Source: an uncultured Verrucomicrobia subdivision 3 bacterium
GTDB taxonomy: Bacteria; Verrucomicrobiota; Verrucomicrobiia; Limisphaerales; UBA11358
Assembly (NCBI GenBank): GCA_903820285.1
Contig: CAIJGS010000022.1
Location: 1-51,030, forward strand
Reading direction: 5' to 3'
Length of the DNA: 51,030 bases
Shown: positions 19,258 to 51,030 of the stretch, piece after piece
Position numbering within the stretch: the first letter of the stretch is position 1
How the letters are laid out: each line of letters begins with the position of its first letter
Program-made: the position numbers and the translations under genes
Notes under the pieces: generated by a model
Told to the model about the DNA's origin: nothing
Seen by the model: only the letters and a program-made list of their open reading frames with translations
The model's database searches: none

Positions 19258-20109
19258 ATGTCTGCCACGCCGAGCCAGTCTGACAACCTCGTATTTGTCG
19301 AGCCATCGCCGATTGCGCGACGGTTGCTGTGGCATATTTTTTCGCTCGGCACCCGGCGGGTGGAGCGGGAGGATCGGCATGAACGCTTTGAAAAACCCGG
19401 CGCGCATCTGTTCTGGGTGCAGTCGGGGGAAGGGGAGCTGGAGTACAAGTCGCGCCGCTTCAAACTGCGCCGGGGCAAGGAAATCTGGCTGGTGGACATG
19501 GCCAAGCCGCGCACGTATTTGCCGGCACCGGGCCGGCATTTAAACATCGTGGGTTTCCGTTTCGGCGGTCCGGGGCTGGAATTCTGGCACGAGGAGTTTC
19601 GCGACGAGGAAAACGCGGAGTTTACCCTGGAAGATTTCAAGGTGGTGACGCGCATCCAGTCGGAGCTGCTGCGGCTGGTCCGTCGCCGGCCGGCGGGCTG
19701 GGAGTGGCAGATTCACGTGCAGATCACGGAGATGCTGGGCCGGTTGCTCATGTCGCGTGACTTGCTGGTGTCGCCCCACCAGGAATTGCCGCCGCCGGTG
19801 CTGCGGGTATTGAATGCGATTTCCGCCAATCCGGCGCGGGATTGGAAGGCGAAAGAACTCGCGGCGCTCGGCAAGGTCAGTTATTCGGGCTTGCGGGCGC
19901 TGTTTCAGAAATCAAATCAGGGCACTATCCACGGTCACATTCAGCGGGCCCGGCTGGATCAGGCCCGGCTGCTGCTGGCGGACAAGCGGCTGTCCATCAA
20001 GGACGTTGCGGCCCAGTTGAATTTCTCCAGCGAGTTTTACTTCAGCCATTTCTTCCGGCATCATACGGGCATGACCCCCACGGAATTCCGGCAGCATCTA
20101 AAAGGATGA
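19258..20109 (+). CDS. AraC-family transcriptional regulator
   Basis: A 283-residue DNA-binding regulator. Residues about 20-110 form a cupin-like ligand domain (FWVQSGEGELEY, then a LVDMAKPRTYLPAPG segment). Residues about 180-283 hold two helix-turn-helix motifs typical of AraC/XylS, with KAKELAALGKVSYSGLRALF as the first and IKDVAAQLNFSS / YFSHFFRHHTGMTPTEFR as the second and signature. It lies inside the operon between the DUF1537 kinase and the GH2 gene and probably activates the surrounding genes in response to a sugar or sugar acid. The 21-bp-spaced TTTGGC repeats at 11505-11531 are possible binding sites. Confidence 0.93.
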   Translation: MSATPSQSDNLVFVEPSPIARRLLWHIFSLGTRRVEREDRHERFEKPGAHLFWVQSGEGELEYKSRRFKLRRGKEIWLVDMAKPRTYLPAPGRHLNIVGFRFGGPGLEFWHEEFRDEENAEFTLEDFKVVTRIQSELLRLVRRRPAGWEWQIHVQITEMLGRLLMSRDLLVSPHQELPPPVLRVLNAISANPARDWKAKELAALGKVSYSGLRALFQKSNQGTIHGHIQRARLDQARLLLADKRLSIKDVAAQLNFSSEFYFSHFFRHHTGMTPTEFRQHLKG

Positions 20110-20163
20110 CATCAAAGCGGTGGCCGGCGGATGGAGGCGGAAAAATCAAACTGTCAAATTAAC

Positions 20164-23019
20164 ATGTTTAAACAGCAATCTCCGTCCAAACTCGGGCGTA
20201 TTTCTTTCTTCCACCAAGGTAGCGGCATATGGCGCCGGATTGCCTTGGGATTTTTGCTGGCAGCCGGATTGGTGCCGGCCACGCAGGCGCAGGAGACGCA
20301 GCGGCTGTATCTTTCCGGTCACGACAAGGATGACGCAGTGCCGTGGAATTTTTTCTGTACCACGGGCGCGCACTCCGGTTACTGGACCAATCTGCCGGTG
20401 CCCTCGTGCTGGGAACTGCACGGGTTTGGCACGATTCATTATCACCGGGATGCGACCAATCCCGTGCCGGAGACGGGGCTATATCAGCATGATTTCACGG
20501 TGCCGGCGGACTGGTCGCGTAAACGGATTTTTCTCGTTTTTGACGGCGTGATGACCGATGCGGCGGCGCGGCTGAATGGGCAGTCCGTGGGGCCGGTGCA
20601 TCAGGGGGCGTACTACCGGTTTAAATACGAAGTGACGTCGCTGGTCAAAACGGGCGGCAACAATAATCTGGAAGTGACCGTGGCCAAGCATTCCGCCGAT
20701 AACTCGGTGAATCAAGCCGAGCGCACGGGGGATTACTGGATGTATGGTGGCATTTTCCGGCCGGTATCGCTGGAGGCGGAGCCGGCGGAGTTTGTTGACC
20801 GGGTGGCGGTAAATGCCAAGGCGGACGGCAGTTTTGCCCTGGATGTTTTTCCCAATGGCTCCACGAATGGCGGGGTGATTGAAGCGCAGATTCAGACGCT
20901 GGATGGGCAGGATGTGGGGCAGCCGTTTACGGCGATCATTGCGGGGGAGAAGGTCTCTTTGGCCACGCAGGTGGCCGCGCCGAGGCTGTGGACGGCGGAG
21001 ACGCCGAATCTTTACCAGGTGCAGGTGCGGCTGAAGGAAAACGGGCAGGTGGTGCATGCGACGAGCCAGCGGTTTGGTTTCCGCACGTTTGAAGTTCGCG
21101 ATGGTGATGGGCTTTATCTTAACGGGAGCCGGGTGATTTTGAAGGGGTGCGACCGGCATTCATTCTGGCCGGACTCGGGGCGCTGTCTGAGCGATGGCAT
21201 TCATCGGCTGGACATCGAGACGCTGAAGGACATGAACATGAATGCCGTGCGCATGTCGCATTATCCGCCGGACGCGCGGTTTCTGGATTTGTGCGATGAA
21301 CTGGGTCTGTATGTGCTCGATGAACTGGCGGGCTGGCACCATTATTACAGCACCGCTGCCGGCACCAATCTGGTGTGGGAGATGGTGACGCGCGATGTAA
21401 ATCATCCTTCAATTCTGTTCTGGGACAATGGCAACGAGGGCGGTTTCAATACCAACTTTGACCATTTGTTTGGCCAGTATGATCCGCAGCAGCGCCGGGT
21501 GCTGCATCCGTGGGCGACGTTCAGCGGGGTGAATACCACTCATTATCTGCCTTACAAACTCGCGAAGATCGCGGCCAATGGCTTTTCAACCGCCTATCAT
21601 AAAAATGATTATCTGGTGGACACCAACACTGCCAAGAAATTCATCTACATGCCGACCGAATTCAACCATGGACTCTATGATGGCGGGGCGGGGGCGGGCT
21701 TGGCGGAGATCTGGGACGTGATGCAGCACAGCCAATATATCGGCGGCGGCTTTATCTGGGCGTTTCTGGATGAAGGCGTGCGGCGGGCGGATAACGGCCA
21801 GATTGATGTGAGCGGCAACGAGGCGCCGGACGGCATTGTGGGTCCTTATCGCGAGCGCGAAGCGAGCTTTTATGCGATCAAACAAATCTGGTCTCCGGTG
21901 CAGGTGACACGGGGATCGAATTGGATTTTTTCGGTGGAAAACCGGTTCAGCTTTACGGATCTGCATGACTGTAAGTTCTCATGGCAGTTGCGCAAGTTTC
22001 CGTCCTGTCGCGGGACGAATTCGAATTTCAGGGTGACCGCTGACGGGGTGATTGAGTCGCCGTCGGTTCCGCCGGGCGGGACAGGTTATTTGGATTTTGC
22101 GTTGCCGGCCGGGGCGACGGGGGCGGATGAGCTGGCGTTGCGGGTGGAGGATCCGCACGGGCGGGAGTTGTGGACCTGGACGTGGTCGCTGGAGATTTAC
22201 CGCGATTATCTCAATGAGCTGTCGAGCGAACCGGTCACGCATCCGGCGGTGCCGTCGGAAACCAACGGAGTCATTACCGTAAACTCGGGCGATATGCTTG
22301 TGACGTTTAGCAAGGAGACCGGGCGGTTGACAGGTATTCGGCGAGGTGAACAGGTGATTTCGCTGATGAATGGTCCGCGGTTTACCGGTGGCGATGGCCG
22401 GGTAACCCAGATTACATTTACCGACGATGGGCCGGATTCGGTGGTCTCGGTGAAGTATGACGGAGCGCTGAAATCGGTTTCGTGGCGGGTGAATGGCAAC
22501 GGGTGGATCAATTGTGATTACACCTATGCGGCCGAGGGGACGAATGATTATCTGGGGGTGCTGTTTGACTACCCGGAAACGCTGGTGAAACACAAGCGCT
22601 GGCTGGGGCAAGGGCCTTATCGCGTTTGGCAGAACCGGCTGGAAGGGACCAGCTTAGGGGTTTGGGAGAATGATTACAACAATACCATCACGGGCTGGCA
22701 TGACTGGATTTATCCGGAATTCAAGGGCTGCTTCGCCGGGGTCCGGTGGTTGCAATGGCAAACGGCGGAGGGGTTGATCACCATCATTCCCAATCACGTG
22801 CCTTATACGCAGGTGCTGACGCCGGAGTTTCCGCCGGCCAATCTGGCGGGGCACACGCTGCCGCCGGTGCCGACTTGTGGCCTTGGTCTGTTGGATATCA
22901 TCCCGCCGATTGGCAGCAAGTTCCAGGCGGCGGAGGCGGTGTGTCCGGCCGGTCAGCGCGGCGTGGCCCATGGAGAATACCATGGGTCGGTTAGTTTCTT
23001 TTTCGGACCGTTGCCGTAA
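20164..23019 (+). CDS. Secreted glycoside hydrolase family 2 enzyme
   Basis: A 951-residue exported enzyme when started at the ATG at 20164, which places the signal peptide (GIWRRIALGFLLAAG, cleavage after TQAQ near residue 40) close to the N-terminus. Domains: jelly-roll sugar-binding domain (about 45-210), immunoglobulin-like domain (about 215-310), TIM barrel (about 315-600), then beta domains with a galactosidase small-chain-like segment (about 700-940). Glu425 in DNGNEGG is the predicted acid/base and Glu499 in MPTEFNHG the nucleophile. Members cleave beta-galactosides, beta-glucuronides or related bonds; specificity is open. It closes the forward operon behind the AraC gene and is followed by a structured non-coding region. 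Confidence 0.92.
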   Translation: MFKQQSPSKLGRISFFHQGSGIWRRIALGFLLAAGLVPATQAQETQRLYLSGHDKDDAVPWNFFCTTGAHSGYWTNLPVPSCWELHGFGTIHYHRDATNPVPETGLYQHDFTVPADWSRKRIFLVFDGVMTDAAARLNGQSVGPVHQGAYYRFKYEVTSLVKTGGNNNLEVTVAKHSADNSVNQAERTGDYWMYGGIFRPVSLEAEPAEFVDRVAVNAKADGSFALDVFPNGSTNGGVIEAQIQTLDGQDVGQPFTAIIAGEKVSLATQVAAPRLWTAETPNLYQVQVRLKENGQVVHATSQRFGFRTFEVRDGDGLYLNGSRVILKGCDRHSFWPDSGRCLSDGIHRLDIETLKDMNMNAVRMSHYPPDARFLDLCDELGLYVLDELAGWHHYYSTAAGTNLVWEMVTRDVNHPSILFWDNGNEGGFNTNFDHLFGQYDPQQRRVLHPWATFSGVNTTHYLPYKLAKIAANGFSTAYHKNDYLVDTNTAKKFIYMPTEFNHGLYDGGAGAGLAEIWDVMQHSQYIGGGFIWAFLDEGVRRADNGQIDVSGNEAPDGIVGPYREREASFYAIKQIWSPVQVTRGSNWIFSVENRFSFTDLHDCKFSWQLRKFPSCRGTNSNFRVTADGVIESPSVPPGGTGYLDFALPAGATGADELALRVEDPHGRELWTWTWSLEIYRDYLNELSSEPVTHPAVPSETNGVITVNSGDMLVTFSKETGRLTGIRRGEQVISLMNGPRFTGGDGRVTQITFTDDGPDSVVSVKYDGALKSVSWRVNGNGWINCDYTYAAEGTNDYLGVLFDYPETLVKHKRWLGQGPYRVWQNRLEGTSLGVWENDYNNTITGWHDWIYPEFKGCFAGVRWLQWQTAEGLITIIPNHVPYTQVLTPEFPPANLAGHTLPPVPTCGLGLLDIIPPIGSKFQAAEAVCPAGQRGVAHGEYHGSVSFFFGPLP

Positions 23020-41929: not shown

Positions 41930-43519
41930 ATGAAGCTAAATCGTTTCGCTATTTGTGCGGGGCTGCTGTGGTTGCTGACGACGGGATTGTCGTTGCAAGC
42001 TGGCGGCATGGTGGAGCAATGGGGTGTTTTTCAGATCATCCTGCCGGGACCGACCAACGGAAATCCGTTTGTGGATACCACGCTTTCGGCCCGGTTTACC
42101 CAGGGGGATATGTCGGTGGATGCCACGGGATTTTACGATGGAGATGGCATTTATTGCGTGCGCTTCATGCCGGACCGGCTGGGTGAATGGCATTACACCA
42201 CGGCCAGCAGCGTGGCGAACTTGGATCATATTAGCGGCGATTTCACGGTGGTGAAACCGGCAGCGGAGAATCACGGTCCGGTGCGGGTGGCCAATACGTA
42301 CCATTTTGCGTATGCGGACGGCACACCGTACAAGGAATTGGGCACGACCTGCTATGCCTGGGTGAATCAGGATGAGGCGTTGCAGGAGCAGACGCTGAAA
42401 ACGCTGGCGGCGGCGCCTTTCAACAAACTGCGCATGTGTGTGTTTCCGAAGCGCTATGACTGGAATACCAATGAACCGCCGATGTATCCCTTCGCGGGCA
42501 TCCCGACGACGAACTGGGATTTTACGCGGTTCAATCCGGAGTTTTTCCGCCACTTCGAGCAGCGGATTGCCGACTTGCAAAAACTGGGTATCGAAGCGGA
42601 TATCATCCTGTTTCATCCGTATGACGAAGGGCATTGGGGTTTCGACCGGATGCCGGCGAGTGCGGATGACCGCTACTTGCGCTATGTGCTGGCGCGGTTC
42701 TCGGCCTACCGCAACGTCTGGTGGTCGCTGGCGAATGAGTACGACTTCATGAAGAAGAAAACGGAGGCGGACTTTGTCCGTTTTGGGGAAATCATTTCGA
42801 CGAACGATCCGAGTCATCATCTGATCTCCATTCATAACGGCCAGAAAATGTTTAATCACACGCTGCCGTGGATCACGCATGTGAGCGTCCAGAATGGCTC
42901 GGCGGTGGAAGACGCCGGTCGGGCGGAATTGTTTCGTGATATCTATCGCAAGCCGGTGGTGTTTGACGAAGTCAAGTACGAGGGCAACCTGCCTAAGCGC
43001 TGGGGTAATCTCTCGGCGGAAGAGCTGGTGTTCCGCTTTTGGGAGGGAACCGTCGCTGGCACGTATGTTGGCCATGGCGAAACGTATTTGAGTCCGGACA
43101 ATATCATCTGGTGGTCCAAGGGCGGCGTGTTGAAGGGCCAGAGTCCGGCGCGGTTGGCGTTTCTGAAACAAGTATTGGCGGACAGTCCGGCGGAAGGCAT
43201 TGACCCGATTGACAAGTGGCAGGATCCCACCATTGCGGGCCAGCCGGGCAAATATTATCTCATCTATTTTGGCAAGCAGCAGCCTGCCACGTGGGAGTTT
43301 AAGTTGCCCAAACCGCCGCTGGGTAAAGGCGCGCCGCTAACCAATGGTGTGGCTTTCACGGTTGAGATTCTGGACACGTGGAACATGACGGTCACGCCGG
43401 TACCAGGCAAGTTTAAGGTGAAGAAGGGAGATTACAGTTATGCCGATGAGGCGGGTCGGAGCATTGAACTGCCCGGCAAACCTTACGTGGCGCTGCGGAT
43501 CAAACGGGTGGAAGATTAA
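41930..43519 (+). CDS. DUF5060/DUF4038-type (apiosidase-like) glycoside hydrolase
   Basis: A 529-residue secreted protein; the ATG at 41930 is preferred over a GTG at 41915 since it starts directly with the signal peptide (RFAICAGLLWLLTTGLSLQA). DUF5060 beta-sandwich at about 25-110 (EQWGVFQIILPG, ATGFYDGDGIYCVRFMP), a GH-A TIM barrel at about 120-430 (ELGTTCYAWVNQDE, FNKLRMCVFPKRYDW), and a C-terminal DUF5605-like beta domain. Glu270 in LANEYDF fits the strand-4 acid/base and Glu347 in VFDEVKYE the strand-7 nucleophile. The barrel is related to GH140, whose founding member is an apiosidase acting on rhamnogalacturonan-II. That similarity links it to the putative apiose genes at 1-11.4 kb, but GH140 membership is not proven. 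Confidence 0.85.
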   Translation: MKLNRFAICAGLLWLLTTGLSLQAGGMVEQWGVFQIILPGPTNGNPFVDTTLSARFTQGDMSVDATGFYDGDGIYCVRFMPDRLGEWHYTTASSVANLDHISGDFTVVKPAAENHGPVRVANTYHFAYADGTPYKELGTTCYAWVNQDEALQEQTLKTLAAAPFNKLRMCVFPKRYDWNTNEPPMYPFAGIPTTNWDFTRFNPEFFRHFEQRIADLQKLGIEADIILFHPYDEGHWGFDRMPASADDRYLRYVLARFSAYRNVWWSLANEYDFMKKKTEADFVRFGEIISTNDPSHHLISIHNGQKMFNHTLPWITHVSVQNGSAVEDAGRAELFRDIYRKPVVFDEVKYEGNLPKRWGNLSAEELVFRFWEGTVAGTYVGHGETYLSPDNIIWWSKGGVLKGQSPARLAFLKQVLADSPAEGIDPIDKWQDPTIAGQPGKYYLIYFGKQQPATWEFKLPKPPLGKGAPLTNGVAFTVEILDTWNMTVTPVPGKFKVKKGDYSYADEAGRSIELPGKPYVALRIKRVED

Positions 43520-43520
43520 A

Positions 43521-46244
43521 ATGAAGCGTTTTTATTTCAGCATCGTCGGGTTGGCATTGCTGTTGGCTGGTGGCCGGTCATTGGCAGCTGAGACAGTTTC
43601 CATTGTCGTGGCGAGCAACGCCGCGCCGCGCGTGCTATTCGGAGCGGAACGGTTGGCGGCGGCAATTCGGGAAGTGGGGACGAATTCTCCACTGCTGACG
43701 CGCATGATTTTGTTCAGCGGTCAGGGCATGGACGCGGTGGTGACGAACCAAACATCAACGCCATCGCGACAGATCCGGGTCAATGTATCGCCCAAACTGC
43801 GTATCGCTCACGAAGGTTTTCAGTTTGGTCTGGCCGATAACAACGACGTGCAGATCTCGTCCAGTGACGATTCCGGTGCACTTTACGGGTGCTTGGAATT
43901 GGTCCGGCGCATTCGCAGCGGCGGCACGCTGGCAGAAATGGCTCAATATCAGGACAAGCCCGCGATGACGTTGCGCGGCACCTGCATTGGCATGCAAAAG
44001 ACATTCATCCTGCCGGGGCGGCATGTGTATGAATATCCCTACACGCCCGAACTGTTCCCGTGGTTTTATGACAAGGCGCTGTGGCGCGAGTATCTCGATT
44101 TTCTCGTGGAAAACCGGATGAACACTCTCTACCTGTGGAGCGGTCATCCCTTTGCCTCGCTGGTAAAATTGAAGGAGTATCCGTATGCGGTCGAAGTGCC
44201 GGATGACATTTTTCAGCAGAATGTGGAAATGTTCCGCTGGCTCACGCAGGAATGCGACAAGCGTGGCATTTGGCTGGTGCAGATGTTTTACAACATACTC
44301 GTGTCAAAGCCGTTTGCGGAAACGAATGGCATCGCCACACAACTTTCCGCACCGACGCCACTTACGGAGGATTACACGCGCAAATCAATCGCTGAATTTG
44401 TGAAGCAGTATCCGAATGTCGGCCTGATGGCGTGTCTGGGCGAGGCGTTGCAGGGGACGCCGAATCAGTTGGAGTGGTGTACCAACGTCATTTTGCCTGG
44501 CGTACTGGCTGGCATGAAAGCGGCGGGCTTGCAGCAGGAACCGCCGGTGGTCATTCGCACGCATGCGATGGATGCGGATGCCATTATGCCGGCAGCGTAT
44601 CAGGTTTATTCCAATCTTTTCACGGAATCAAAATACAACGGCGAATCGCTCACTACCTGGGAGCCGCGCGGTCCGGATCAGAAAACGCATCTGGCGATGA
44701 GCAAGCTCGGGCCGCATCTGGTGAATATTCACATTCTTTCCAATCTGGAACCGTTCCGTTACGGCGATCAGGAGTTCATCAAAAAGTGCGTACAAGCGTC
44801 GCGGGACCGGTTGGGCGCGACAGGCGTGCATCTGTATCCATTGTCCTACTGGAACTGGCCGGACTCGCCGGACATTGCATCCGTGCCGTTGAAACAATGG
44901 GATCGCGACTGGATGTGGTTCACTGCGTGGGCCCGCTACGCTTGGAATCCGGATGTGCCGGAGGATGCTGATCATGAATATTGGATTGCACGATTGGCGG
45001 AGATTTATGGGAATACCAATGCGGCGAACCATATTTTGCAGGCGGTCAATGCGGCCGGTGAAGTGGCGCCGCGACTGGTGCGGCGGTTTGGAATTACGGA
45101 AGGTAACCGTCAGACGCTCTCGCTGGGGATGACTTTGGATCAATTGGTGAATCCGGCCAAGTACAAGGCCATCGAGGATTTGTGGCTTTCGCAGGCACCG
45201 CCTGGTGAGCGGCTGGATGAATATGTGAAGAAAGAATGGAATCACGAACCGCATGTAGGCGAGACGCCGCCTTCCATTATTCGTGAAGTGTTGGATGCTT
45301 CGTCCAATGCCGTTGCGGCGGCGGCGGCGGCGGAGCCATTCGTCACCAAAAACCGGGATGAATTTGCGCGGCTGAAAAATGACACCCTCTGCATTCAGGC
45401 GATGGGTCAAAACTATGCGGCCAAAGTGAAGACGGCGGAATTGGTGCTGCGTTATAATTACAGCCATGACATTGCCGATATGGAAGCAGCGGAGCGGTAT
45501 CTCGCGGAGAGTTTGGTGGCTTACCAGAAACTCGATGACCTGACTCGTCCGGCCTATCACTTCGCGAATGGCATGCAGACTTCACAGCGGAAAATTCCGG
45601 TGTCCGGCGGGGCAAAAGGCATGGGAACGAATTATCTTTGGTCGCAGCTCTTGCCCATGTATCAGCGCGAACTGGCGGCTTTCCAGGACAAGGTGATACA
45701 ACTGAAGAAGCCGGTGCCGGTTGCGGCAGTGGCGGATGATGCCGGCATCAAAGCGTGGCCGACGGCGACGTTCAAGTTGATCAGCACCAATGCTGAAACA
45801 TACGTGGTGCAGTCGGGAGCCCGGGTGTTTGCCGACCGGGAGTTTGCAATTCAAAGTCTGGCGCCGGAACTGAACGGTTTGACCGGCATCCGCTTTGCCC
45901 ATGAGGCGGCGAAGAAGGGGCGTTACGTGCCGATTGAATTTGAAGCGGCGGAGCCGGTGCAGGTGCTGGTGGGTTATTTCAAAGCCACGCAAAAAGGCTG
46001 GCTGCAAGTGCCGAATCTGGAAACAGCGGCGCAGGCGGATGAGCGCGGCGGGGTGGACTGCCTGCTCGATAACGCGGCGGCCATCGCCGGTTGTCCCGAT
46101 GTGGAGGTGCATGCCTTCCGTTATGGGGCCGGGCGGCAGCGGCTCGAACTCATTGGTAAGGGCAGTTTTGTCATTCTCGGCATCGTGCCGCAATCAGCCA
46201 CTTTGAATAAACGCGATGCCCGTCACGGCACTCATCAGCAATGA
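43521..46244 (+). CDS. Large exported glycosidase-like protein with zincin-like N domain and TIM barrel, unclassified
   Basis: A 907-residue exported protein (signal peptide FYFSIVGLALLLAGGRSLAAE). Residues about 25-135 look like the small alpha/beta domain found before the barrel in GH20, GH67 and GH115 (VLFGAERLAAAI, DDSGALYGCLELVRRI). Residues about 150-480 appear to be a TIM barrel: LRGTCIGMQ, DFLVENRMNTLYLWSGHPF, LMACLGEALQGTPNQ, HAMDADAIMP, GATGVHLYPLSYWNWPD. A helical region follows, with a poly-Ala stretch near 600, and a C-terminal beta-sandwich. Alpha-glucuronidase- or galacturonidase-like activity is possible. I cannot place it in a named family. Start is 1 bp after the previous stop; its own stop overlaps the GH127 start. 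Confidence 0.75.
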   Translation: MKRFYFSIVGLALLLAGGRSLAAETVSIVVASNAAPRVLFGAERLAAAIREVGTNSPLLTRMILFSGQGMDAVVTNQTSTPSRQIRVNVSPKLRIAHEGFQFGLADNNDVQISSSDDSGALYGCLELVRRIRSGGTLAEMAQYQDKPAMTLRGTCIGMQKTFILPGRHVYEYPYTPELFPWFYDKALWREYLDFLVENRMNTLYLWSGHPFASLVKLKEYPYAVEVPDDIFQQNVEMFRWLTQECDKRGIWLVQMFYNILVSKPFAETNGIATQLSAPTPLTEDYTRKSIAEFVKQYPNVGLMACLGEALQGTPNQLEWCTNVILPGVLAGMKAAGLQQEPPVVIRTHAMDADAIMPAAYQVYSNLFTESKYNGESLTTWEPRGPDQKTHLAMSKLGPHLVNIHILSNLEPFRYGDQEFIKKCVQASRDRLGATGVHLYPLSYWNWPDSPDIASVPLKQWDRDWMWFTAWARYAWNPDVPEDADHEYWIARLAEIYGNTNAANHILQAVNAAGEVAPRLVRRFGITEGNRQTLSLGMTLDQLVNPAKYKAIEDLWLSQAPPGERLDEYVKKEWNHEPHVGETPPSIIREVLDASSNAVAAAAAAEPFVTKNRDEFARLKNDTLCIQAMGQNYAAKVKTAELVLRYNYSHDIADMEAAERYLAESLVAYQKLDDLTRPAYHFANGMQTSQRKIPVSGGAKGMGTNYLWSQLLPMYQRELAAFQDKVIQLKKPVPVAAVADDAGIKAWPTATFKLISTNAETYVVQSGARVFADREFAIQSLAPELNGLTGIRFAHEAAKKGRYVPIEFEAAEPVQVLVGYFKATQKGWLQVPNLETAAQADERGGVDCLLDNAAAIAGCPDVEVHAFRYGAGRQRLELIGKGSFVILGIVPQSATLNKRDARHGTHQQ

Positions 46245-48271
46245 AACGGATTATACTTAACATTTTTACGGGCGGTTTGGTAATGGCGGCCATGGCCGTC
46301 GGTGCCGGCAATTCCGGCGTGGTGGATGATACCGCCAGCCCGCATGCGCTGGTGCACAGCGTGGGACTGAATGAAACACACTGGACCACTGGCTTCTGGG
46401 GCGATCGCTTTGAACTGTGCCGGACGCAGATGGTGCCGGGCATGGACCGGCTGATGGAAGGGACAAACTACACCCAGTTTTTCCGCAACTTCGAGATCCT
46501 TGCGGGGCAGGCGACGGGAAGGTCGCGCGGCGCCTCATTCAATGATGGCGACTTCTACAAGTTTCTCGAAGGTGCCAGCGCGACGCTGGCGGTGACCAAT
46601 GATGCCCAGCTCAGCGCGCGGCTGGACCGGATCATTGCGGTGATCGGCAAGGCGCAGGAGACGAATGGCTACATCGATACATGGGTGCAGTTGCATCAAC
46701 GCGAACCGAATTCAAAAGCGGCCCCGTTTGGAGAACGAAATAATTTCGAGGTTTATAACATTGGACAGTTGATGACGGCGGCGTGTGTGCATTACCGGGT
46801 CACGGGCAAAACCAATTTTCTCAACATCGCCCGAAAGGCGGCGGACTGTCTCATCCAGGCCTTTGCGAAACCCACGCCGGAGACGGCGGTCAATTCCGTC
46901 TGTCCCTCGCATTACATGGGCAGCGTGGAACTGTATCGTGCCACCGGGGACGTGCGGTATCTGGACCTGGCGAAGAAATTCATCGCCATGCGCGACCTGA
47001 TCAAGGACGGCGAAAGCGATGATCAGGAGCGGATTCCGTTTGGGCAGCAGCAAGAGGCTGAGGGGCACGCGGTGCGCGCCAATTATCTGTATGCAGGCGC
47101 GGCGGATTTGTATTTGGAGACCGGCGACAAGGCGCTGTGGAAACCGCTGGCGGCGATCTGGACCAATGTGGTCACGGAAAAAATGTACATCACCGGCGGC
47201 TGCGGGGCGCTGTATGACGGCGCATATCCGGATGGCGGGCGCTTTCACAACAACATCAGCCGCGTGCACCAGGCCTATGGCCGGAATTACCAATTGCCCA
47301 ACATTACGGCGCATAATGAAACCTGTGCGAATATCGGCAATGCCCTCTGGAACTGGCGCATGTTTCTCGCCACGGGCGAGGCGCGGTTCATGGACGTGGT
47401 TGAGCTGGAACTTTATAATAGCGTGCTATCGGGCGTCGCGCTGGACGGGACGAATTTCTTTTACACTAATCCGTTGCGCGTGACCGATCCGCTGCCGGTG
47501 GCGTTTCGCTGGTCGCGTACGCGCGTGCCGTTCGTGGGATCCTTCTGCTGTCCGCCCAATCTGGTACGAACCGTCGCCGAATCGGCGGATTATGCGTATG
47601 GCAAAACGGGCGATGCGGTCTGGGTGAACCTCTACGGCAGCAGCGTGCTGGATACGCGATTGACCAATGGAGAATCGGTGAAGCTGGTGCAAGAAACGGA
47701 ATATCCGTGGAATGGCCGGGTGCATCTCCGCATCGAAGCCGCCGGTAAAAAAGAATTCGCACTCAAGTTGCGCATTCCGGGCTGGGCGGCGAGTGCGGTG
47801 GTGCGGTTGAATTTGGGCCCGGTGGATGCGAGTGCCAAGCCGGGCAGCTATTTTGAGATTCGCCGGGTCTGGCAGGCGGGGGATGTGGTGGATTTGGATC
47901 TGCCTATGCCGGCGCGCTTGATGACCGCCAATCCGCTCGTGGAGGAGGATTTTGGCCAGGTGGCGGTGCAGCGCGGTCCGGTGGTGTATTGTCTGGAGTC
48001 GCCCGACTTGCCGAAGGGCATCCGGCTTTCCGATGTGCGCGTGCCGACGGATATTCAACTGGAGGCGCGTTATGATCAGCGCCTGTTCGGCGGTGTGGCC
48101 GTGCTGGAAGGCAAGGCCCTGGCCATTGCGCCGGAAAATTGGAGCGGCCAGTTGTATCATGAATTTCACCCGGCGGAAGCGCGGCCGTTCAAGGTGCAAC
48201 TGATACCGTATTCGCTCTGGCAAAATCGCGGGCCGTCGGAGATGTCCGTGTGGCTGCCGTTGCAAAATTAA
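46241..48271 (+). CDS. GH127 beta-L-arabinofuranosidase
   Basis: A 676-residue exported enzyme with signal peptide (IILNIFTGGLVMAAMAVGAG). The (alpha/alpha)6 catalytic domain starts at HWTTGFWGDRFE and contains the zinc-thiolate site typical of GH127: Glu360 and Cys362 in HNETCANIG and Cys436-Cys437 in FCCPPN. By comparison with the characterised bifidobacterial enzyme, the second Cys of the pair acts as nucleophile. C-terminal beta-sandwich domains follow (LRIPGWAASAVV, QRGPVVYCLES). It releases beta-linked L-arabinofuranose from plant glycans such as pectin side chains and arabinogalactan proteins. Coupled by ATGA to the upstream gene and 4 bp from the GH43-like gene, which could provide further arabinose removal. 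Confidence 0.93.
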   Translation: MKRIILNIFTGGLVMAAMAVGAGNSGVVDDTASPHALVHSVGLNETHWTTGFWGDRFELCRTQMVPGMDRLMEGTNYTQFFRNFEILAGQATGRSRGASFNDGDFYKFLEGASATLAVTNDAQLSARLDRIIAVIGKAQETNGYIDTWVQLHQREPNSKAAPFGERNNFEVYNIGQLMTAACVHYRVTGKTNFLNIARKAADCLIQAFAKPTPETAVNSVCPSHYMGSVELYRATGDVRYLDLAKKFIAMRDLIKDGESDDQERIPFGQQQEAEGHAVRANYLYAGAADLYLETGDKALWKPLAAIWTNVVTEKMYITGGCGALYDGAYPDGGRFHNNISRVHQAYGRNYQLPNITAHNETCANIGNALWNWRMFLATGEARFMDVVELELYNSVLSGVALDGTNFFYTNPLRVTDPLPVAFRWSRTRVPFVGSFCCPPNLVRTVAESADYAYGKTGDAVWVNLYGSSVLDTRLTNGESVKLVQETEYPWNGRVHLRIEAAGKKEFALKLRIPGWAASAVVRLNLGPVDASAKPGSYFEIRRVWQAGDVVDLDLPMPARLMTANPLVEEDFGQVAVQRGPVVYCLESPDLPKGIRLSDVRVPTDIQLEARYDQRLFGGVAVLEGKALAIAPENWSGQLYHEFHPAEARPFKVQLIPYSLWQNRGPSEMSVWLPLQN

Positions 48272-48275
48272 ATTC

Positions 48276-49229
48276 ATGAAAACCGGTTGTGTATTTTGGG
48301 TTCGGTCGTTGCTGGTTGCCATCCTGATGATGGTTGCAGGGATGATTTCACCGGAAAGCCAGGCGGCGGAGACCAGTGGCGATACTATTTTCCTTTCCAC
48401 CTCGTTCCGGGATGCGGATCAGAAGTTCCTGCGCTTTTTATCGAGTATGGATGGGTATCACTGGACGAATGTGCCCGGCACGTTTCTGGAGGCCAAAGTA
48501 GGTGCGAGTCAGCAGTTTCGCGATCCCAGTCTTTTGCGCGGACCTGATGGCACGTTCCATTTGGTGTGGACGGCGGGTTGGCATCATGACCAGGGGTTTG
48601 GGTATGCGTCGTCGCGGGATCTGATTCACTGGTCGGCGCAGCAGTTTGTACCGGTGATGACGAACGAGCCGACGGCGGTGAACGTGTGGGCGCCAGAATT
48701 ATTTTATGATGATGACAAGTTCATCATCGTCTGGGCTTCCACCATTCCGGGTCGGTTTCCTGACAAGCTGGAGAAGCACGATAACAATCAGCGGCTTTTT
48801 TATACCACCACCCGGGATTTCACGAATTATACTCCGACGAAATTGTTCTATGACGGCGGGTTCAGCGTGATTGACCCGTTTATTTTGAAGGATGGCGGGC
48901 GATATGTATTGGTGTGCAAAGACAACTCGCGGCAGGCGTTGAATTTGCGGGTGGCCTTTGCGGATTCTCCGATGGGTCAGTGGCAGGAGGTATCCGCACC
49001 GTTTACGCAAAAGTTTACCGAAGGCCCGTGCGCGTTGAAGGTGGGCGACGACTGGCTGATCTATTTTGACGCCTACCGGCAGAAGATTTATGGCGCGGTC
49101 AAAACACATGATTTCAAGACGTTCACGGACATCACTCCGGAGGTCAGCTTTCCGGTTGGCCACAAGCATGGTACCGCGCTGCGGGTGCCGCGCGAAATTC
49201 TGGCGGGATTGCTGAAAGCGCAGCCTTAA
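48276..49229 (+). CDS. Secreted GH43-like five-bladed beta-propeller glycosidase
   Basis: A 317-residue exported protein (signal peptide SLLVAILMMVAGMISPE, cleavage near SQAA). The mature domain is a compact five-bladed propeller: FRDPSLLRGPDGTFHLVWT (about residues 86-104) supplies the general base Asp, FSVIDPFIL (about 198-206) the pKa-modulating Asp, and EGPCALKVGDDWLIYFD (about 249-265) the acid Glu. This fits the GH43/GH117 fold, with arabinosidase, xylosidase or galactosidase activity in known relatives. It lacks extra carbohydrate-binding modules. It is placed between the GH127 gene and DUF3826, as in other pectin loci. Confidence 0.86.
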   Translation: MKTGCVFWVRSLLVAILMMVAGMISPESQAAETSGDTIFLSTSFRDADQKFLRFLSSMDGYHWTNVPGTFLEAKVGASQQFRDPSLLRGPDGTFHLVWTAGWHHDQGFGYASSRDLIHWSAQQFVPVMTNEPTAVNVWAPELFYDDDKFIIVWASTIPGRFPDKLEKHDNNQRLFYTTTRDFTNYTPTKLFYDGGFSVIDPFILKDGGRYVLVCKDNSRQALNLRVAFADSPMGQWQEVSAPFTQKFTEGPCALKVGDDWLIYFDAYRQKIYGAVKTHDFKTFTDITPEVSFPVGHKHGTALRVPREILAGLLKAQP

Positions 49230-49246
49230 AAATCACTTTCTTTCAT

Positions 49247-49903
49247 ATGAAAAAACATATTGTCATACTGGTAATCCTGCTTGGATTTTCGGCGGTCACG
49301 GCGCTGGCGGACAAGAAATCCGGCGGCACCGATACCAATCTGCCACCCGAGCAAGTGGAGGTGAATTACACCAAAGCCATTGAAGGTCGCACCGACGGCG
49401 TGCTGAAGGCGCTGGCGCTGACCGATGCCGCCGCTGCGGCCAAGGTGCATGATGCCGTGATCGCCCAGTACCGCGCGCTCAAGGCCTGGCATGAGGCGAA
49501 CGATGCACAACTTAAGGCGGCCAAAGGTGACACCAATGCCGTGGCGGCAATCCGCGCCTCGTTGAAGACCTTGCATGACGGTTTTCTGGCGAAGCTGGGC
49601 GAGGTGTTGACGCCCGCACAGGTGGAAACCGTGAAGGACAAACTGACCTACGGCAAGGTACAGTTCACGTTTGGCGGGTATGTAGCGCAATATCCCACAC
49701 TGACCGAGGCGCAGAAACAGCGCGTTCTCGAGTTGCTCAAGGAGGCCCGGGAAGAAGCGATGGATGGCGGCAGCGCAGATGAAAAGACGGCGGTATTCCA
49801 GCACTACAAAGGCAAGATTAACAATTACCTGTCCAAGCAGGGTCTGCATCCCGCAAAGGCCAAGCCGAAGGCGGATGCAGCGGCGAATGCACCGGCAAAG
49901 TGA
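49247..49903 (+). CDS. DUF3826 family exported protein
   Basis: A 218-residue exported protein (signal peptide IVILVILLGFSAVTALA). The mature part is alpha-helical and charged: EGRTDGVLKALALTDAAAAAKVHDAVI, VLTPAQVETVKDKLTY, YPTLTEAQKQRVLELLKEAREEAMDGGSADEKTA shortened here by description, and a Lys/Ala-rich tail. These features match DUF3826, a family without known function that repeatedly occurs at the end of pectin and rhamnogalacturonan utilisation clusters in Bacteroidetes and Verrucomicrobia. Here too it closes the operon. A structural or chaperone-like periplasmic role is possible; no catalytic motif is visible. Confidence 0.85.
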   Translation: MKKHIVILVILLGFSAVTALADKKSGGTDTNLPPEQVEVNYTKAIEGRTDGVLKALALTDAAAAAKVHDAVIAQYRALKAWHEANDAQLKAAKGDTNAVAAIRASLKTLHDGFLAKLGEVLTPAQVETVKDKLTYGKVQFTFGGYVAQYPTLTEAQKQRVLELLKEAREEAMDGGSADEKTAVFQHYKGKINNYLSKQGLHPAKAKPKADAAANAPAK

Positions 49904-49943
49904 AAGAGTGCGATCCTGAAATTTGCATAATTTGATTTGCGTT

Positions 49944-49981
49944 GCATGTGCATTGTTTTCGATAAAAAGCAATGCATATGC
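49944..49981. promoter_or_regulatory. Inverted repeat upstream of a sigma-54 promoter (possible activator site)
   Basis: Arms GCATGTGCATTG (49944-49955) and CAATGCATATGC (49970-49981) match in 11 of 12 positions around a 14-bp AT-rich spacer. The element lies roughly 65-105 bp upstream of the -24 box, a normal position for an enhancer-binding activator. The sequence around it is AT-rich, unlike the neighbouring genes. Confidence 0.55.
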
Positions 49982-50047
49982 AATAAATAATGATGCCTGT
50001 TTAATGGGTGTATTTATAAAGTGTTGATAATCAACTAATCGAATACT

Positions 50048-50063
50048 TGGCATGCGGGTTGCT
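50048..50063 (+). promoter_or_regulatory. Candidate sigma-54 (-24/-12) promoter of the PEP-CTERM gene
   Basis: TGGCATGCGGGTTGCT agrees with the consensus TGGCAC-N5-TTGCW apart from T for the final C of the -24 box. The GG and GC dinucleotides are separated by exactly 10 bp. It lies 77 bp before the ATG at 50140, leaving a leader of about 65 nt rich in AACCAA. Confidence 0.65.
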
Positions 50064-50139
50064 TAAATAGTGGTGTCGATGCGAACCAAGTCGACGAACC
50101 GAAAACGAACCAAACCTAAACAACCAAATAAGAACGAAT

Positions 50140-51030
50140 ATGAAGACCAACAAAATCAACTTGCTCACCCTGGCGGCCTTGATCGTGGCACCGGCCCTTT
50201 ACGCGACGCCCGCCTTGAGCGACACCGGCACGCCGGCGCCGGTGCAAGGCAAGGATGACCCGTACAATCTGCCGCTGGCCGGACCGGTGATGCAGGCGGG
50301 ATCGACGGCGGCATCGCAGAGTTTCGATACGACGGTGATGCCGAGCCTGCTGAAGTTCATCCAGCAGACCTTGCCGGAAGGGCAGAACAACACCAAGAGC
50401 ACGGCGTTTGAAGTGGACCCGAGCAAACTGGTGATGGCGAGCACGTATAATGTGACGGCGACGTTTGTGTATGAGAATGCCGGGTACCAGAACGCGATTG
50501 GCGTGGACGCGGTGGCGGCGGGTCAGAAGGGTCCGCAGAGCGCGTTTGACGAAGTGACGAGCCCGACGGCGAAGCTGGTGTTTCCGGATGCGTCGACGCC
50601 CGCCGGTGGCGGGGCGGCGATTGGCACGGGGGCGACGACGGTGAGCCAGCCGGTGGTGCCGGGCGATTTTGTGAACCTGGGCAAGGTGGCGCAGGGGACG
50701 CTGCTGGATTTCTTTTTGATTGCGAACGGGGCGAATGGCGGGAGCCAGGTGATCTCGGCGAATTCGGCGCTGAACACGGATGGATTCAGCCAGCATGTGG
50801 CGGAATTTTCGACGCACATTTTCGCGGTGCCGCAGCTGAACAGCCCGTACCTGTTCCTGTCGTTTGAAGACTTGTGGGGCGGTGGCGACAAGGATGTGAA
50901 TGACACGATCATTGCGCTGAATGTGGGCGTGGCGACGGTGAACTCGCTGCTGGCGACGCCGGAACCGGCGATGCCGCTGACGTTCGCGGCCTGCCTGGGC
51001 CTGGCGCTGATCGCGGTGCGCAAAAACAAA
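50140..51030 (+). CDS. DUF4114 / PEP-CTERM sorted exported protein (runs off right edge)
   Basis: An open frame of 297 codons reaching the window end without a stop. It has a signal peptide (INLLTLAALIVAPALYA, residues about 7-23). The body is a beta-rich exported domain; LFLSFEDLWGGGDKDVNDT (about residues 244-262) is the DUF4114 signature with acidic Ca2+-like residues. The C-terminus carries PEPAMPLTF, a short hydrophobic helix (ACLGLALIAV) and a basic RKNK end, the PEP-CTERM tripartite signal for exosortase processing and surface or extracellular-matrix sorting. Only the last few residues or the stop are probably missing. It has its own putative sigma-54 promoter and AACCAA-rich leader and no Shine-Dalgarno. 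Role in exopolysaccharide-associated surface structure is likely but unproven. Confidence 0.88.
   Translation, partial: MKTNKINLLTLAALIVAPALYATPALSDTGTPAPVQGKDDPYNLPLAGPVMQAGSTAASQSFDTTVMPSLLKFIQQTLPEGQNNTKSTAFEVDPSKLVMASTYNVTATFVYENAGYQNAIGVDAVAAGQKGPQSAFDEVTSPTAKLVFPDASTPAGGGAAIGTGATTVSQPVVPGDFVNLGKVAQGTLLDFFLIANGANGGSQVISANSALNTDGFSQHVAEFSTHIFAVPQLNSPYLFLSFEDLWGGGDKDVNDTIIALNVGVATVNSLLATPEPAMPLTFAACLGLALIAVRKNK

Follow-up and report, generated by a model that had tools for sequence, protein, structure and literature searches.

The window, a stretch of 51,030 nucleotides, is the entire contig C22 (genome size 5.2 Mb, completeness 91%) and contains near its end what is probably a control region in a sigma-54 regulon of exosortase-anchored DUF4114/PEP-CTERM proteins. 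The regulon appears to be run by a dedicated NtrC-type activator, encoded in this genome on contig C151. This assignment draws on features read from the DNA: the promoter, its upstream dyads, their conservation and spacing, and the linkage and co-occurrence of the activator gene with the target genes. The positions of the features are given in Table 1.

Table 1. Promoter, candidate activator sites and target gene at the end of the window
Feature	Positions	Strand	Description
Sigma-54 -24/-12 promoter	50048-50063	+	TGGCATGCGGGTTGCT; GG at 50049-50050, ten bases, GC at 50061-50062
Distal dyad, candidate activator site	49942-49953		TTGCATGTGCAT; centre 100 bp upstream of the -24 element
Proximal dyad, candidate activator site	49972-49983		ATGCATATGCAA; centre 70 bp upstream of the -24 element
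Target gene	50140..51030	+	Signal-peptide-like start, DUF4114 and PEP-CTERM-like tail; runs off the contig end a few codons before the stop

The promoter fits the context TGGCAY-N5-YTGCW with ten bases between GG and GC (30 promoters aligned), and its position places the expected transcription start near 50074. A single protein of the genome, RpoN on contig C392, matches the Sigma54_DBD domain (200.5 bits). An inverted repeat with two 18-nt arms (49942-49959 and 49966-49983), which are 89% complementary, spans 106 to 65 bp upstream of the -24/-12 element. Each arm contains one near-palindrome (TTGCATGTGCAT and ATGCATATGCAA, with centres 30 bp apart), so that two putative activator dyads of the form TTGCA-NN-TGCAA describe the repeat better. 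The gene downstream contains a DUF4114 domain (PF13448, 40.5 bits, cut-off 27) and ends in TPEPAMPLTFAACLGLALIAVRKNK, in which a PEP motif, a hydrophobic stretch and a basic end can be recognized by inspection; the tail models of NCBIfam and Pfam do not match it. A preliminary description of this region had proposed a sigma-54 promoter with exact -24/-12 spacing, preceded by a 12-bp inverted repeat at which an enhancer-binding activator would act, and driving a PEP-CTERM gene in a PVC bacterium. The GG-N10-GC spacing, the PEP-CTERM gene and the host, a member of Verrucomicrobia subdivision 3, agree with that proposal, and its general mechanism is probably right. The repeat is also present, with arms longer than 12 bp and the two-dyad organization described above.

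The predicted sites are more conserved than the DNA between them. In five related promoters aligned on the -24 element, identity is 77% and 76% in the two dyads and 82% in the -24/-12 element, whereas it is 51% and 47% in the spacers between the sites; most of the related promoters are not independent of each other. The distal dyad is kept at an equal distance in C222b and, in the genome G041 of the same genus, in G041_C180 and G041_C104b. Across promoters, the dyad centres lie near -70, -80, -90, -100 and -110. The best period for the dyad distances, among those from 5 to 20 bp, is 10.5 bp (R 0.72, Rayleigh p 6e-5, n=19, with one hand-chosen site for each of 19 ortholog groups), as expected if the activator and the polymerase must face each other over a DNA loop. 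Other species of the genus have the layout as well, as do members of other families within the order. The DUF4114-PEP genes of Luteolibacter, Cerasicoccus, Chlorobiaceae and Desulfoluna have no such promoter and no such activator nearby. The sulfate reducer Desulfoluna butyratoxydans (L226:9683-14740) carries a cassette of DUF4114 PEP-CTERM, TPR, exosortase-like and EpsI-like genes without the promoter or the activator, possibly acquired by horizontal transfer. At G011:C16 (L140:4197-4283), a dyad and a -24/-12 element precede no long open reading frame, and a hairpin lies further along; this locus may encode a small RNA.

Within the genome, the complete arrangement of promoter and dyads marks one subfamily of PEP-CTERM genes and not PEP-CTERM genes in general. 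A -24/-12 search of the window with one mismatch allowed gave three matches against 2.7 expected, and a single match by itself proves little. The strict pattern has seven matches in the whole genome, against three for the reversed control. Four of the seven share the dyad layout: three immediately precede DUF4114/PEP-CTERM genes, and the fourth is at position 16234 of C222, at the contig end, behind two DUF4114/PEP-CTERM genes. The relaxed pattern gave 31 matches, against 21 in the control, and eight of these are PEP-CTERM promoters, seven from the DUF4114 family and one from the Npun_F0296 family of exosortase-dependent surface proteins. All seven DUF4114/PEP-CTERM promoters that are readable in the genome have the -24/-12 element with upstream TTGCA-NN-TGCAA dyads, some of them degenerate. 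The C292 promoter has a single dyad, and the dyads are poor at the G271 and C259 promoters. Among the approximately 50 PEP-CTERM genes identified by TIGR02595, the C259 gene is the only one with a similar promoter, and a general PEP-CTERM regulon was rejected on this basis. The preliminary description had put forward, as its own check, a search for the motif in front of further PEP-CTERM genes, and the recurrence at the DUF4114 family supports it in this respect. An order-wide scan for half-site and promoter was noisy, and its only use was to identify an additional member in this genome.

The genome encodes an exosortase on C1 (152 bits). On C292, a TPR gene and the first 107 residues of a second, operon-linked exosortase come after the DUF4114 gene, and the contig ends there. 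Several relatives have, downstream of the DUF4114 gene, genes for a TPR protein, an exosortase, a 166-amino-acid protein and an EpsI-like protein; the exosortase of these operons scores under the cut-off of every named subtype.

A gene for an NtrC-type activator is divergent from the DUF4114 gene, with the intergenic region in common, in G054, G115, G048 and G015; the same pair is present in G271 and the record SZAS-18 and, by coordinates, in G267, G150, G317 and G134, giving ten genomes in total. The N-terminal domain of the activator was found in 27 of the 29 genomes of the order that have the DUF4114 family and in 27 of the 291 that do not (Fisher p 5e-22 for 320 genomes, kinship ignored). 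The two genomes with the family in which the activator was not detected are G091 and G287. In an even sample of the phylum the activator is rare, turning up in 6 of 387 genomes when that of the window is not counted. Of 38 activator loci, 18 have a dyad with no more than one mismatch in front of the activator gene, compared with 0.9 expected from shuffles; three of the genomes concerned belong to another family of the class. This indicates that in many relatives the activator probably occupies dyads upstream of the gene that encodes it. Several further activator loci carry symmetric variants of the dyad, such as TTGCGAACGCAA. The ortholog in the genome of the window is encoded on the minus strand of C151 at about 19988-21361 (L100:4989-6362). 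It adjoins exopolysaccharide export genes, is not located beside a DUF4114 gene, and has no full dyad of its own. At six loci from other families (L289, L292, L293, L296, L297 and L304), the activator gene is divergent from an exosortase-like, glycosyltransferase or other PEP-CTERM gene, so the regulon is probably wider than the DUF4114 family.

The activator has a putative receiver-like N-terminal domain, a sigma-54 AAA+ domain and a C-terminal helix-turn-helix. The AAA+ domain (PF00158) scores above 200 bits in three orthologs, and the GAFTGA motif is present in all five aligned activators, including that of the window's genome. The TTLWRWRK motif of the helix-turn-helix is conserved in the alignment, and the Fis-type helix-turn-helix model passes its cut-off in G048 only. 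The full-length model of the activator has low confidence, with a mean pLDDT of 50, and only the first 123 residues, predicted with fair confidence to form a receiver-like fold, were used in a Foldseek search; NtrX, NtrC4 and VpsR are among the matches. The phospho-acceptor aspartate and the lysine of true receivers are absent from the activator alignment, as read by eye. Therefore, a paired kinase is probably not its switch, and we infer that the protein does not work as a standard phosphorylated response regulator.

The closest analogies to the activator are VpsR and FleQ, both orphan activators with degenerate receivers that control exopolysaccharide genes. Both resemble the C151 protein in their NtrC-type build, in a receiver-like domain without a phospho-site and in their link to surface polysaccharide, and VpsR does so additionally as a structural match, but both recognize other DNA sites, and VpsR is considered to act with sigma-70. 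The arrangement of the dyads is similar to that of NtrC at glnA, where two dyads about three helical turns apart are positioned about 100 bp upstream of a -24/-12 promoter. The pairing, spacing and distance to the promoter are alike; however, the NtrC dyad has a different sequence, and NtrC is phosphorylated by NtrB.

We propose that the C151 activator would bind dyads with the consensus GCATTGCANNTGCAATGC some 70-130 bp upstream of the promoter. DNA looping would then bring it to the sigma-54 polymerase at the -24/-12 element, where it would spend ATP to open the promoter. Control of the activator may come from a ligand, from a partner protein or from the amount of the activator itself. Several anchored proteins would thereby be expressed together and under tight control, along with the TPR-exosortase-EpsI machinery in cases where the target gene heads the operon. 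In addition, we infer a link of the regulon to exopolysaccharide.

The preliminary description had suggested that the upstream site may belong to PrsR. This response regulator, the phosphorylated member of the PrsK/PrsR pair, controls sigma-54 promoters of PEP-CTERM genes of Proteobacteria from an activator box about 63 bp upstream (PMC1569441). The two systems share the -24/-12 promoter, a possibly repeated upstream activator site, a PEP-CTERM target, a long untranslated gap and a link to exopolysaccharide genes, and the genome encodes PrsR-like activators, of which the one on C157 reaches 408.7 bits. This is below the TIGR02915 cut-off of 502.6 bits, which no protein of the genome passes, and the C151 activator scores 279.1. 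The five activator-linked kinases that were scored reach at most 95.8 against the PrsK cut-off of 300 (TIGR02916), and the linked TPR protein reaches 39.8 against the PrsT cut-off of 312 (TIGR02917). The PrsR box TTTACA is not common to the promoters, since it occurs upstream of the -24 element in 2 of 30, or in 5 of 30 when either orientation is counted, and Haft et al. found no PrsR outside Proteobacteria (PMC1569441). The system described here also differs in its operator sequence, in an activator without a standard receiver, in its phylum and in its restriction to one PEP-CTERM subfamily. The assignment to PrsR is thus probably wrong, with PrsR itself a very improbable occupant of these sites, and the activator is likely to be another NtrC-type protein. 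The genome encodes eight such proteins, and the separation of the C151 gene from the DUF4114 genes leaves room for one of the others to drive the promoter; we consider this unlikely, because the C151 type is distinguished by its divergent linkage in ten genomes, its co-occurrence with the family and the dyad upstream of its own gene.

The inverted repeat lies 38 bp past the stop of the upstream DUF3826 gene and folds better than shuffled sequences (-27.8 kcal/mol, z -4.5), as a terminator of that gene with no role in the promoter would. However, no run of T follows it, and the dyads recur behind unrelated upstream genes, helically phased and sometimes singly, as on C292, which makes a terminator highly improbable. 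Least probable of all is a chance resemblance, in which an A+T-rich gap happens to contain a repeat and a fortuitous -24/-12 match, one match being expected at that tolerance. It was already refuted by the conservation footprint, in which the sites are conserved and the spacers less so, by the recurrence at all seven promoters of the family, and by the relatives.

Sigma-54 control of PEP-CTERM genes has a precedent in Aquincola tertiaricarbonis, in which transcription of the PEP-CTERM gene pepA depends on RpoN and the -24/-12 element was mapped (PMC9850573). Haft et al. found such control only in Proteobacteria, and predicted further regulators and DNA motifs within and outside that phylum (PMC1569441). 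The dyads and their candidate activator look like one regulator of this kind. We found no paper in the open-access literature that names this operator or activator, and this proposed variant of the sigma-54 control of exosortase-anchored proteins is new. It supplies a concrete pair of operator and putative activator in a phylum other than Proteobacteria, makes the regulon predictable, and offers an entry to what turns on exosortase-anchored surface proteins in Verrucomicrobia, most of which are uncultured. A further suggestion is that separate phyla arrived at one and the same control logic by using different components. More speculatively, Verrucomicrobiota might have their own sigma-54 switch, independent of PrsK/PrsR, in which an orphan, autoregulated activator senses a second messenger such as c-di-GMP through its degenerate receiver, thereby coordinating the production of anchored proteins, exosortase and exopolysaccharide export.

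Several observations concern the genes themselves. The members on C298 (L037:490-1761) and G041:C96 (L082:7129-8337) have a Q/N-rich middle with flagellin-like stretches (LSQLSTGLKISSAADDAQ and QKLSTGLRINQAGQD), which precedes the DUF4114 domain and the PEP tail. Contigs break in or beside near-identical DUF4114 genes at the window end (51030) and on C222, C301 and C372. C301 and C372 begin with identical 141 bases, and therefore near-identical copies were probably collapsed or left unjoined in the assembly. On C392, a PEP-CTERM gene of the Npun_F0296 family (L102:4878-5738) directly adjoins rpoN. The window itself contains, at 43440-49903, a run of genes resembling alpha-D-galacturonidase, aceric acid hydrolase (GH127), a GH43 enzyme and DUF3826, which suggests the breakdown of rhamnogalacturonan-II.
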